Shown piece after piece: positions 59,132 through 62,538 of a stretch of 62,932 nt of DNA. How positions within the stretch are numbered: the stretch's first letter is position 1; every line of letters starts with the position of its first letter. Below the pieces are notes generated by a model. The model ran no database searches, had not been told where the DNA came from, and saw only the letters and a list, made by a program, of their open reading frames with translations. The stretch is from an uncultured Alistipes sp. (GTDB taxonomy: Bacteria; Bacteroidota; Bacteroidia; Bacteroidales; Rikenellaceae): contig CALUMM010000006.1 in assembly GCA_944321755.1 (NCBI GenBank), positions 1 to 62,932 of the forward strand. The letters run 5' to 3'. A program made the translations under genes and the position numbers.

Positions 59132-59977
59132 TCAGACCTCCGGATTGGGACATTCGGCATATTCGCCCAGGACGCGGAAGTCGCTGGTCAGCGGTCGGGC
59201 GGCATCGACGGCCTGTCGGTATCGCACGGGGTCGTCGAAGGTGACATCGACGTAGAACTGATACTCCCATTCGCGGCCGATGATCGGCAGGGACTGGATT
59301 TTCGTGAGGTTGATGTCATAGAACGAAAGCACGGTGAGGACCTTCGAGAGGCTTCCCTGGGTGTGACGGAGTGTAAAGACGAGCGAGGCCTTGTTGGTTC
59401 GTGCGGGATCGTGGAATTCCGCGGCGCGGCTCACGTCGGCGAGGATCAGGAAGCGGGTAAAGTTGTGCTTGTTGGTTTCGATGCCGCGCTGGAGGATTTC
59501 GAGACCGTAGAGTTCCGCGGCGTCGGCTCCGCAGATGGCGGCTGTTCCGACGAGGTGCTCTTCGGCGATTTCGCGGGCGCTGCCTGCGGTATCGTCGCGT
59601 TCGACGACCTTCATTCCGGGCTGGCTTTTGAGGAATTCGCCGCACTGCATCAGGGCGATGGGATGGGAGTGTACCTCGTGGATTTCGTCGAGCTTCTGTC
59701 CGGGGAGTGCGGCGATGACGTGCGAGATGCGGAGTTTCTGTTCACCGACGATGCGGGCTCGGCTGCGCTGGAGGAGTTCGTGGTTGGGGAGCAGGCTTCC
59801 GGCGATGGTGTTTTCGATGGCGGCGATTCCGAGCAGGGCGGGATCTTCGGACATGCGGCTGAAGAGGATGTCGAAGTTCGAACAGGGGAGTACGCCGATC
59901 TGTCGGTCGGAGAAGTAGCGCCGGGCGGCGGTTTCGTGATAGCATCCTGCGATGCCCTGTATGGCGATTTGCTCCAT
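59132..59977 (-). CDS. pheA: Prephenate dehydratase with ACT domain
   Basis: A 281-residue cytoplasmic enzyme converting prephenate to phenylpyruvate, the committed step to phenylalanine. The catalytic domain (1-185) has QGIAGCYHETAA, AAIENTIAGSL and the NFTRFLIL threonine-arginine motif. The ACT domain (about 200-275) starts at SLVFTLRHTQGSLSKVL; its effector motif reads QSLP in place of ESRP. I start at MEQIAIQG (ATG complement 59975-59977). It is monofunctional, with the mutase supplied by the fused enzyme downstream. Transcription is probably governed by the leader peptide and terminator at 60003-60151. Confidence 0.93.
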   Translation of the reverse strand: MEQIAIQGIAGCYHETAARRYFSDRQIGVLPCSNFDILFSRMSEDPALLGIAAIENTIAGSLLPNHELLQRSRARIVGEQKLRISHVIAALPGQKLDEIHEVHSHPIALMQCGEFLKSQPGMKVVERDDTAGSAREIAEEHLVGTAAICGADAAELYGLEILQRGIETNKHNFTRFLILADVSRAAEFHDPARTNKASLVFTLRHTQGSLSKVLTVLSFYDINLTKIQSLPIIGREWEYQFYVDVTFDDPVRYRQAVDAARPLTSDFRVLGEYAECPNPEV

Positions 59978-60002
59978 GTTTTTAGGATTGTTTTTTTGTA
60001 AG

Positions 60003-60034
60003 AAAAAATCCCGCACGTGGTGTCGTGCGGGATT
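60003..60034 (-). terminator. Attenuator terminator of pheA
   Basis: On the minus strand AATCCCGCACG (60024-60034) and CGTGCGGGATT (60007-60017) form a perfect 11-bp stem with a 6-base loop, followed by TTTTTT. It ends 26 bases before the pheA start and 25 bases after the leader stop. Its TCCCGC arm can instead pair with GCGGGA at 60085-60090 in the leader. Confidence 0.85.
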
Positions 60035-60058
60035 TTCGTGAATTTATGGTTGCTTGCT

Positions 60059-60151
60059 TCAATTCAGGGTATTGATGCATACCGTCCCGCTTCTTCTCCT
60101 GGTAAAAAAGAAAAAGTAATAAAAGAAGTATGCAAAACCGTAGAGTCTCAT
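60059..60151 (-). CDS. Phe/Tyr-rich leader peptide of the phenylalanine attenuator
   Basis: A 30-codon ORF from the ATG complement at 60149-60151 to TGA at 60059-60061. It reads MRLYGFAYFFYYFFFF and then TRRRSGTVCINTLN. Residues 4-16 hold seven phenylalanines and four tyrosines in 13 positions. A ribosome stalled at residues 13-16 would leave the GCGGGA segment (60085-60090) free to pair with the terminator arm, preventing termination. A ribosome reaching the stop would cover it and let the terminator form. A GGTAT/ATACC hairpin (60068-60083) lies within the same stretch. The gene product itself has no other function. Confidence 0.85.
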   Translation of the reverse strand: MRLYGFAYFFYYFFFFTRRRSGTVCINTLN

Positions 60152-60174
60152 GATTTCATGACCTTAACTGGCTA

Positions 60175-60205
60175 CAAAAATAGTTAAAAATTTTGAAAAA
60201 CCAAA
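60175..60205 (-). promoter_or_regulatory. Promoter of the leader-pheA operon (TTTG-N19-TATTTTTG)
   Basis: On the minus strand TTTG (60202-60205) and TATTTTTG (60175-60182) are separated by 19 bases, a full match to the Bacteroidota consensus. Transcription would start about 17 bases before the leader ATG. Confidence 0.8.
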
Positions 60206-60281
60206 TCCGGAGCGTGTTTTTTTGAACGGGATAAGCGGAATTTCGGGTTCTGGTTGCTTCGGGGCCGACCGGGATTGCACG

Positions 60282-60312
60282 AAAAAGGCGGTTGCAAGGG
60301 TTTGCAGCCGCC
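60282..60312 (-). terminator. Terminator of the GLUG protein gene
   Basis: On the minus strand GGCGGCTGCAA and TTGCAACCGCC form an 11-bp stem with one mismatch, followed by TTTTT (A run 60282-60286). Confidence 0.8.
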
Positions 60313-60498: not shown

Positions 60499-62538
60499 TT
60501 ATTGTCCCTTCTTCAATACGGGCAGGCTGTTTTCGTCGGGGAGTTCGTACTGCCAGCTTGAGCCTGCATTCTGCAATGCGGTGTTCATGGCGGCGACGGC
60601 ATCCACCCAGGTAACGGCCGTGCCGTCCACCTTGGCGGTTCCGTCGGTGGAAGCGCGATTGTAGCCGATACCTGTATCGAGGTTGTTGCTCCAGTAACAG
60701 GTGGTCAGGATGCCGCTTTGGTTTTCTCCCACCACGCCGCCGACAAAGTTGCCCGTTCCCGTGACCTCGCCCGCAGCATGGTAGCAGGCAGTCATGGAGC
60801 CATTTACTCCCATCACGCCGCCGACATAGCTGTTGCCGGAGACATTGCCCGTGGCGTAGCAGGCAATCACGATGCTTTCGTTTCCCACCACGCCGCCGAC
60901 ATAGTTGTTGCCGGAGACGTTACCCGAGAAGCTGCAGCCGGTCACGGGGCAGGTATCGTCAATGATGATGAGATCGTTTCCGGTTACGATGTCGGTCTCG
61001 ACGTGGGAAGTCATACCTTGGTGTTCTCCCTCCACACCGCCGACATAGTCGCCCGTTCCCGTGACATCGCCCGAGACGCTGCAATCGGTCAGGGGGCTGT
61101 AGATGCTGCATCCCGCCACGCCGCCGACGTTGCTGTTGCCCTTGACATTGCCCGAGACGCTGCAGTCGGTCAGGGTGCCCTCCCAGCTGTATCCCACCAC
61201 GCCGCCTACGCTGCTTTCACTACCGCTAACGCTGACGCTGCCCGACACCGAGCAGTTGACAATGTTGACGCTAAAGCTGTATCCTGCCACACCGCCTACG
61301 CAGCTACTACTACCGCTGCCGCTGACGCTGCCCAACACCGAGCAGTTTACAATGCTGACGCCAAAGATGTATCCCGCCACGCCGCCGGTGTACGTGCCAC
61401 CTGTTACGTTCACTTCTGTCAGCGTCACGTTCTGCACCTTGCCGCCATCGCCGATGTAGCCGAACAGGCCCGCATAATCTTGATCCGGGAGGTAGATGGT
61501 CAGCCCCGTGATGGTATGGCTGCCGCCGTCGAAGGTGCCGATGTACCCGTCGCAGTTATCATCAGTATAATAATAGCCTACGGGTGTCCAGTTGCTCTCC
61601 TTCTCGGCCACCTCGGGCAGGGTGATGTCGGCGGTGAGGGTGCAGTTCAGCGAGAGGTCCTTCCGCGCGGCCTCTCCCCACGCCAGCAGTCCGTTGGCGT
61701 TGTAGACAATATAGGTATGGGTGGCTTCGTCGTAGGTGTAGCCCGGGTCGGCCGCGGCGAGGGAGACGGTGTAGGTATATTCCTCGCCCGCTTTCCATTC
61801 GGCATCGTTCTTCATCTTATAGACGAAGCTCTTGCCGCTGGTGAAGGTGCAGGTAATGAAGGCCGTGCCTGCGGCCACCGTCTGCGGGGCGACGAGGGCC
61901 GACCAGGTGTCGCCACCCTTGTTATACGGGGTGATTACAGCCGGGTTTCCGTTCCCGGTGGAGAGGCCCGTCAGCCGCACGTTCATCGACTCCTCGGTGT
62001 AGTCCGTCAGGGCGACGGTCACCCGCGCCGTGCGGTGGGTGAAGCGGAGCGTGGGGTTGGCGTAGCTCACCGCCTGCTCCTCGGCGGCGATGAAGTCACT
62101 GCCCTCGTAGCCGTCCCGTGTGCTCTGGTCGGCACGGACCTTGACGGCGGGCAGGTTCTCCTCGCCGTTGTAGGGCCACCATGCCGTGACGCGGAGGTCG
62201 TTGCGATCGGTCCAGTAGTGCGGGTCGTCGGAGGTCAGCGTGGCGCTCGTGTTGTCGGCGGTGGTGGGCGTCACGTCGTACGCCTTCACCTTGCCGCCAA
62301 TCATAACTGCCACGGAGGTGACGCCCTCCCAGTTGCCGTCCACGGGGGCGCGCGTGGCGGCATCCGCGGCCGCGTCGGTCGGGGAGGCTGTTGCCGCGGG
62401 GTTCAGCCCCGTGGCGGTGAAGACCATGGGCGAGCCTTCCGCCCCTTCGGGCAGGAAGCCCGCGTCGTCCCGCGAGCAGGCCGCAAGGCCCAGCAGCAGG
62501 GCGAGGGCGGCGGATATATGGATGGTTGTTCGTTTCAT
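60499..62538 (-). CDS. Fimbrillin-like lipoprotein with GLUG repeats
   Basis: A 679-residue lipoprotein (LGLAACSRDDAG). Residues 30-270 resemble a fimbrillin / Mfa-like beta domain (VAVMIGGKVKAYDV, LRFTHRTARVTVAL). A linker (YIVYNANGLLAWGEAARKDL) precedes about nine GLUG motifs between 360 and 625, each near GSVSGSSCVGGVAGYSF-like VGGV.G...  followed by I.NCS.SG.V. The end (DGTAVTWVDAVAAMNTAL, LPVLKKGQ) is shared in pattern with the next gene. Such proteins are surface adhesins or pilus-related structures. The repeats are rich in small and polar residues and could vary by recombination. Confidence 0.85.
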   Translation of the reverse strand: MKRTTIHISAALALLLGLAACSRDDAGFLPEGAEGSPMVFTATGLNPAATASPTDAAADAATRAPVDGNWEGVTSVAVMIGGKVKAYDVTPTTADNTSATLTSDDPHYWTDRNDLRVTAWWPYNGEENLPAVKVRADQSTRDGYEGSDFIAAEEQAVSYANPTLRFTHRTARVTVALTDYTEESMNVRLTGLSTGNGNPAVITPYNKGGDTWSALVAPQTVAAGTAFITCTFTSGKSFVYKMKNDAEWKAGEEYTYTVSLAAADPGYTYDEATHTYIVYNANGLLAWGEAARKDLSLNCTLTADITLPEVAEKESNWTPVGYYYTDDNCDGYIGTFDGGSHTITGLTIYLPDQDYAGLFGYIGDGGKVQNVTLTEVNVTGGTYTGGVAGYIFGVSIVNCSVLGSVSGSGSSSCVGGVAGYSFSVNIVNCSVSGSVSVSGSESSVGGVVGYSWEGTLTDCSVSGNVKGNSNVGGVAGCSIYSPLTDCSVSGDVTGTGDYVGGVEGEHQGMTSHVETDIVTGNDLIIIDDTCPVTGCSFSGNVSGNNYVGGVVGNESIVIACYATGNVSGNSYVGGVMGVNGSMTACYHAAGEVTGTGNFVGGVVGENQSGILTTCYWSNNLDTGIGYNRASTDGTAKVDGTAVTWVDAVAAMNTALQNAGSSWQYELPDENSLPVLKKGQ

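Follow-up and report, generated by a model that had tools for sequence, protein, structure and literature searches.

What controls the operon that begins with pheA in an uncultured Alistipes sp. is the question raised by a short region of the window, that is, the whole 62,932-nt stretch of DNA analysed here, which comes from a 2.88-Mb assembly (87% complete, 168 contigs). The initial annotation had proposed a ribosome-mediated attenuator immediately upstream of pheA. The comparison reported below makes it highly probable that this region acts as a ribosome-mediated transcription attenuator, which would sense charged tRNA-Phe and tRNA-Tyr and control the pheA/DAHP synthase–chorismate mutase operon.

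Layout of the pheA leader region

All of the features lie on the minus strand and are given in window coordinates. The first gene of the operon, pheA (59977–59132), encodes a prephenate dehydratase of 281 aa (Pfam PF00800, 2.6e-50); its start was taken as the ATG at 59977, the mechanical ORF list beginning upstream at a GTG. After a gap of 60 nt follows the second gene (59071–58007), a DAHP synthase–chorismate mutase fusion of 354 aa (PF00793, 2.7e-38; PF01817, 2.5e-23), and then response regulator and histidine kinase genes. On the other side of the region, an ORF at 62538–60499 has a lipoprotein-like start, as judged by eye, and repeated GNxYVGGV-type units, which are presumably GLUG-like repeats; a second ORF of this repeat type (62931–62551) runs off the window end.

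The ORF list and the sequence gave a leader peptide ORF of 30 codons, MRLYGFAYFFYYFFFFTRRRSGTVCINTLN, at 60151–60059, with its ATG at 60151. Codons 4–16 (60142–60104), which make up segment 1, include seven Phe and four Tyr codons, just as first annotated. Six consecutive in-frame Phe/Tyr codons were found at a single place in the assembly, this leader (in four overlapping registers), though such uniqueness is descriptive, because a reversed-pattern control gave five matches and T-rich tracts can score. Segment 2, the putative antiterminator strand AGCGGGAC, lies at 60091–60084, 12 nt downstream of the last Phe codon, and its GCGGGA (60090–60085) is able to pair with TCCCGC of the terminator, a complementarity already noted in the initial annotation and confirmed in the sequence. 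Folds, a duplex calculation and position placed segment 3, which is both the 5′ arm of the terminator and the partner of segment 2, at 60036–60024, and folds and position placed segment 4, the 3′ arm, which enters the T tract, at 60017–60005. The intrinsic terminator as a whole spans 60036–60003 and ends in six T (60008–60003). An 11-bp stem had been described for it; the six T stood, but the stem has 12 pairs in the automatic call (60035–60006, −19.6 kcal/mol) and 14 in the full fold. It lies approximately 25 nt before pheA, and the leader stop codon lies approximately 80 nt upstream of pheA, with the terminator in between. The minimum free energy (MFE) of the 193-nt leader RNA was −50.7 kcal/mol (z = −5.17), and none of 200 shuffled sequences folded as well, so the fold is not a matter of chance. 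This fold comprises the terminator and a predicted 1:2 hairpin (60133–60077), in which the Phe/Tyr codons pair with the purine-rich segment that follows them and whose outer helix joins GCATAC (60133–60128) to GTATGC (60082–60077).

Sequence inspection placed a promoter at 60205–60175, with TTTG (60205–60202) at −33, a 19-nt spacer and TATTTTTG (60182–60175) at −7. TTTG-N19-TANNTTTG is the Bacteroidota promoter consensus, and the description of this promoter as a consensus one thus holds in the Bacteroidota sense but not in that of sigma-70; a sigma-70 promoter and terminator scan of the window listed neither the leader promoter nor the terminator. Across the loci compared, 180 of 194 had TANNTTTG no more than 110 nt upstream of the leader ATG, as did 346 of 3,880 shuffled sequences, and the full two-box form TTTG-N18–22-TANNTTTG was found in 83 of the 194. 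Bacteroidota are thought to start translation largely without Shine–Dalgarno pairing. The median distance from the end of the −7 box to the leader ATG was 26 nt and a Shine–Dalgarno-like 5-mer preceded only 5 of 197 leaders, which together predict a 5′ untranslated region (UTR) of approximately 20 nt and an initiation independent of Shine–Dalgarno pairing.

Distribution of the leader and selection on its codons

The comparison covered 250 regions upstream of pheA, made up of the 30 nearest loci, a further 60 of the family, 60 of the order, 20 of the class or phylum and 80 of named GTDB genomes. The 90 loci of the family (30 from the search, including this genome, and 60 fetched) were drawn where 129 of 200 genomes matched, the 60 of the order were taken from 71 matching of 158 genomes, and the 20 of the phylum were taken from 102 matching of 118 genomes, mostly as the best-scoring picks, so that the most distant loci are under-sampled. 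The named GTDB loci were the best 80 of at least 592 candidate stretches, and 18 of them were identical to other loci over the final 180 nt. Removal of exact duplicates left 231 distinct loci, among which 229 had at least 150 nt of upstream sequence; one locus (L017) was excluded from alignment A1 and another without a segment 2 (L139) from the spacing test. Because the wide set contains relatives, the locus counts are not counts of independent events.

An ATG-initiated ORF in which 14 codons hold six or more Phe/Tyr was present in 199 of the 229 loci; the dinucleotide shuffles reached this in 89 of 2,290 cases and the reverse complements in 22 of 229. For eight or more Phe/Tyr, the counts were 174 of 229, 2 of 2,290 and 1 of 229, respectively. 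The leader and the terminator occurred together in 197 of the 231 distinct loci, namely 29/29 of those among the 30 nearest loci, 48/60 in the family, 52/60 in the order, 17/20 in the class or phylum and 51/62 of the named genomes, whose holders include Bacteroides sp. 224, Phocaeicola barnesiae, Barnesiella sp. An22 and Parabacteroides sp. PH5-46. The check on relatives suggested by the initial annotation, conservation of the Phe/Tyr codons and the terminator, thus came out in favour of an attenuator before pheA, and the putative attenuator is, as far as comparison of sequences tells, a widespread feature of Bacteroidota rather than one specific to Alistipes. A Phe/Tyr-rich leader was absent from 30 of the 229 testable loci; the distinct loci without a leader number 32, including two (L041 and L116) with too little upstream sequence. 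Four loci (L097, L202, L205 and L217) carry in its place a similar non-aromatic upstream ORF with a GTG start (...TPIC...RPFFTQYGAF...), possibly another gene or element before pheA.

The leader peptides vary widely among loci apart from their richness in Phe and Tyr. Averaged over the 197 leaders, a block of up to 14 codons contained 5.4 Phe and 3.9 Tyr, and 191 of the leaders had at least two Tyr within the 14-codon block. In 192 close pairs from 98 loci, which share ancestry and thus do not give independent events, the single-base differences at Phe/Tyr codons numbered 373, of which 157 were synonymous, 100 exchanged Phe and Tyr and 116 were other replacements; 127 multi-base differences (61 Phe–Tyr and 66 other) were set aside. 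Mutation alone from TTT or TAT would be expected to give approximately one synonymous to one Phe–Tyr to seven other changes, and the observed 157:100:116 indicates that the leader positions are held aromatic, with Phe and Tyr mutually substitutable. The pattern of changes in the aligned codons implies that Phe/Tyr is kept, that Phe–Tyr swaps are tolerated and that selection acts in one frame. Trp was also considered as a sensed amino acid and dropped, because it accounted for 16 of the 2,754 residues in the Phe/Tyr blocks (with some Trp anywhere in 30 of 197 leaders), and because PF00425 (TrpE and kin) and hisG (PF01634) were not found in the 87%-complete assembly. Taken as an observation in its own right, this absence suggests that the source organism may be a His and Trp auxotroph.

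The gene for DAHP synthase–chorismate mutase was the next match after pheA, 15–276 nt further on, in each of L001–L030. An order relative (L257) has the operon pheA–aminotransferase–DAHP synthase–chorismate mutase–prephenate dehydrogenase and a family member (L258) has pheA–tyrA–DAHP synthase–chorismate mutase; in the lineage of the window, the aminotransferase gene is missing at the operon position. A linked tyrA as the reason for the Tyr codons fails in this genome, where tyrA is on another contig and shows no aromatic-rich ORF among those listed in the 450 nt upstream of it. The retention of Tyr codons without a linked tyrA fits the role of DAHP synthase in Tyr synthesis as well.

These data bear on the best of the competing explanations, an attenuator that senses Phe only, with the Tyr codons as filler, given that TAT/TAC resemble TTT/TTC. 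The classical enterobacterial pheL is a Phe-only leader and speaks for it, as does the position of tyrA outside the operon in this genome. Against it stand the number of Tyr codons in the leader blocks, the 100 Phe–Tyr swaps beside 116 single-base replacements of all other kinds, though the swap is one of eight possible replacements, the synthesis by the operon of a precursor shared with Tyr, and the presence of tyrA in the operon of the two relatives. We thus regard a Phe-only attenuator as unlikely, and the initial proposal that the mixed codons sense both amino acids gained support from the frequency of Tyr and of Phe–Tyr exchange.

Predicted competing helices and ribosome position

A terminator of −10 kcal/mol or better followed 214 of 218 leaders (not deduplicated), compared with 25 of 436 shuffled sequences, and one of −8 kcal/mol or better followed 197 of 199 distinct leaders; an earlier, stricter detector, which gave 134 of 218, was replaced since it missed visible hairpins. 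Among 28 distinct sequences of the genus, 99.2% of the cells in the terminator helix were paired and five of nine pairs had changed on both sides, a result reached by none of 500 shuffles. Two marks of such an attenuator are thus present, namely a short ORF that can be translated and has its codons for the products of the pathway in a cluster, and an intrinsic terminator before pheA.

In the window, the duplex of segments 2 and 3 has a predicted energy of −12.3 kcal/mol. Covariation in the antiterminator was weak at the level of the genus (both sides had changed in two of nine pairs, and 42 of 500 shuffles scored as high), and since it was too weak alone, swap tests across loci were used. The median energy of segment 2 with the terminator 5′ arm was −14.4 kcal/mol for the cognate arm, −9.6 kcal/mol for the arms of other loci and −7.0 kcal/mol for shuffled segment 2. 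A 2:3 helix of at least 7 bp was found in 141 of 197 loci, compared with 22% of 5,910 swaps between arms sharing no 6-mer, and the helices had 84 different sequences across loci; the longest 2:3 helix was shorter than 6 bp in 20 of the 197. This co-variation of the two strands points to an antiterminator and a terminator that exclude each other across the phylum, with one strand common to both.

In 162 of 196 loci, segment 2, chosen as the best duplex before the masking and spacing tests, began 7–14 nt past the last Phe/Tyr codon, compared with 13% under the null. Given the size of its footprint, a ribosome that holds this last codon in its A site should have its leading edge approximately at the start of segment 2. 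By this geometry, a ribosome stalled at the regulatory codons would leave the antiterminator strand free.

Based on these features, the course of events may be pictured as follows. RNA polymerase would start approximately 20 nt upstream of the leader ATG, and a ribosome would begin the leader without a Shine–Dalgarno sequence and trail RNA polymerase closely. When Phe- or Tyr-tRNA is scarce, this ribosome would stall in codons 4–16 and cover segment 1, with segment 2 exposed just ahead of it and able to pair with the emerging segment 3, and the operon would be transcribed because no terminator forms. When Phe and Tyr are both plentiful, the ribosome would run on and segment 2 would be hidden by the ribosome, by the 1:2 hairpin or by both, so that segments 3 and 4 would form the terminator and transcription would end approximately 25 nt before pheA.

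The non-starved step, in which antitermination is prevented and termination follows, is the least settled and least supported part of this scheme. The 1:2 hairpin, expected to sequester segment 2 whenever no ribosome occupies the Phe codons, belongs to the MFE structure of the full leader but not to that of the leader with the terminator left off, and across loci 0.62 of segment 2 was engaged in 1:2 pairing, a moderate excess over 0.45 in the control. In equilibrium folds of the RNA as it stands before the emergence of segment 4, the probability of the 2:3 helix, P(2:3), was at least 0.5 in 189 of 197 loci with segment 1 masked and still in 138 of 197 with segment 1 free; masking raised it by at least 0.3 in only 62 of the 197 and lowered it as much in 3. 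For the window leader, P(2:3) rose from 0.62 with segment 1 free to 0.97 with it masked. Since the 2:3 helix is predicted to form with segment 1 free in those 138 loci, the predicted 1:2 hairpin alone does not explain termination, and termination in the fed state may need the ribosome itself over segment 2. Once at the stop codon, the ribosome would have half or more of segment 2 beneath it in 143 of 196 loci, as against 46% under the null; in the window leader, the ORF continues past segment 2 and a ribosome at the stop codon would not cover half of it.

Two further explanations can be weighed against the competing helices. The first is a constitutive terminator with a translated upstream ORF that merely lowers or boosts basal expression, for example through reinitiation. 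One study proposes a role in reinitiation for short leader genes near the next gene, Bacteroidetes included, with an effect that peaks at 11–14 bp in Bacteroidetes (PMC4833913). Compared with this peak, the leader stop codon is far from pheA, at some 80 nt, and is separated from it by the terminator; moreover, the antiterminator co-varies with the terminator across loci. We therefore consider a constitutive arrangement of this kind very unlikely. The second is a switch that binds a metabolite or a tRNA (a riboswitch or a T-box) or a protein-binding leader, with the ORF incidental. A terminator with a competing helix would be common to such switches, but selection on the codons in one frame and a spacing tied to the last Phe/Tyr codon argue against it. 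Furthermore, a search of the 62,932 bases at the Rfam gathering score gave no match, leader, T-box and riboswitch families included, and the sub-threshold matches listed in 59900–60300, such as Thr_leader (25.4 bits against 55) and Leu_leader (21.9 against 50), were weak, which leaves this explanation with scarcely any probability.

Match to the pathway, precedents and biological meaning

The same genome offers an internal control at ilvD, where leader codon identity again follows the pathway of the gene, as deduced from the sequence. An Ile/Leu/Val-rich leader, MIASNHSNNVVINVLLVVLEKITGER, lies approximately 86–167 nt upstream of the first ilvD start codon (L261, contig C47), with a terminator and a matching upstream antiterminator strand recognized by eye. 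All 14 ilvD loci found in 31 genomes, this one included, had Ile/Leu/Val-rich ATG leaders (raw counts), the best 12 residues of which held 8–11 Ile/Leu/Val, suggesting that attenuation is in general use in this group. That the aromatic run arrests the ribosome through the nascent chain or slow codons regardless of supply, with some other inducer, draws on the unusual six-codon run at its one place in the genome, but it is made exceedingly improbable by the divergence of the leader peptides beyond their Phe/Tyr richness and by residue identities that match the pathway, as they do at ilvD.

The proposed attenuator resembles the enterobacterial pheA and pheST leaders, which likewise have a short ORF with clustered codons before the gene, a 1:2/2:3/3:4 logic and an intrinsic terminator. 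Unlike these, the present leaders mix Phe and Tyr codons, have a Bacteroidota promoter and almost no Shine–Dalgarno-like 5-mers, precede an operon with DAHP synthase–chorismate mutase and have no Rfam match; the enterobacterial pheL corresponds to the Rfam family Phe_leader (RF01859). Comparative attenuator predictions across bacteria by Vitreschak in 2004 reportedly included Bacteroidetes, and those by Lopatovskaya in 2010 are likewise said to have covered Bacteroidetes/Chlorobi. Bacteroid-trp, the Trp-codon attenuator of the trp operon, also belongs to Bacteroidetes and was not matched by the window. In a published list of motifs, the Bacteroid-trp RNA motif (RF01692) of Bacteroidetes is classed as a probable cis-regulatory element rather than a switch, and a pheA motif of actinobacteria is listed as well (PMC2864571). 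Short ORFs reminiscent of leader peptides have been mentioned in B. thetaiotaomicron (PMC7366714). The closest precedent is a conserved 5′ element of pheA without an Rfam match in Flavobacterium psychrophilum and other Flavobacteriaceae, reported in a section of a study that also gives clues to leader-peptide attenuation before amino acid operons (PMC9723704). The gene and the phylum are the same, but that section gives no leader sequence, codon identity or Bacteroidales member, unlike the leader set analysed here. Searches of the open-access literature turned up, among the matches listed, no account of such a Phe/Tyr leader preceding pheA in Bacteroidales. The attenuation mechanism is thus classical and a pheA 5′ element has a precedent in the phylum, and the interest lies in the probable dual specificity and the wide distribution.

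The pheA of the window shares 97% identity with its counterpart in L171, an uncultured Alistipes, and its other nearest named matches were also from Alistipes. Across genomes of the same genus, identity to it was either 66–97% or 35–44%, with one at 53%, which divides them into two pheA lineages. In the tree, the window-type pheA clusters with relatives from Barnesiella, Muribaculaceae and Bacteroides and is separated with 100/100 support from one same-genus and one same-family sequence, which are the sole representatives of the other type included. Judging from these sequences, displacement of the pheA operon by transfer, leader included, is possible.

A fuller reading joins these elements into an ancient, Bacteroidota-wide dual Phe/Tyr sensor with interchangeable stall codons, an approximately 20-nt 5′ UTR lacking a Shine–Dalgarno sequence, tight coupling and a contrasting pheA lineage; as a joint claim, we hold it to be only somewhat probable. 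According to this reading, the Phe and Tyr codons would form one stall zone, the switch would read whichever tRNA has the lower charge, and the leader would stay with the operon in a pheA lineage sharply unlike the pheA of other members of the genus. The coupling of ribosome and RNA polymerase would have to be tight because of the short 5′ UTR and the start without a Shine–Dalgarno sequence.

The leader points to a switch, without an Rfam family of its own, that is conserved in a dominant gut phylum and would control the synthesis of aromatic amino acids. Since attenuation needs a ribosome close behind RNA polymerase, it offers a direct test of transcription–translation coupling in Bacteroidota, and its mixture of Phe and Tyr codons makes dual amino acid sensing a clean, testable question. 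The switch very probably lets the bacterium make aromatic amino acids only when Phe or Tyr is short.
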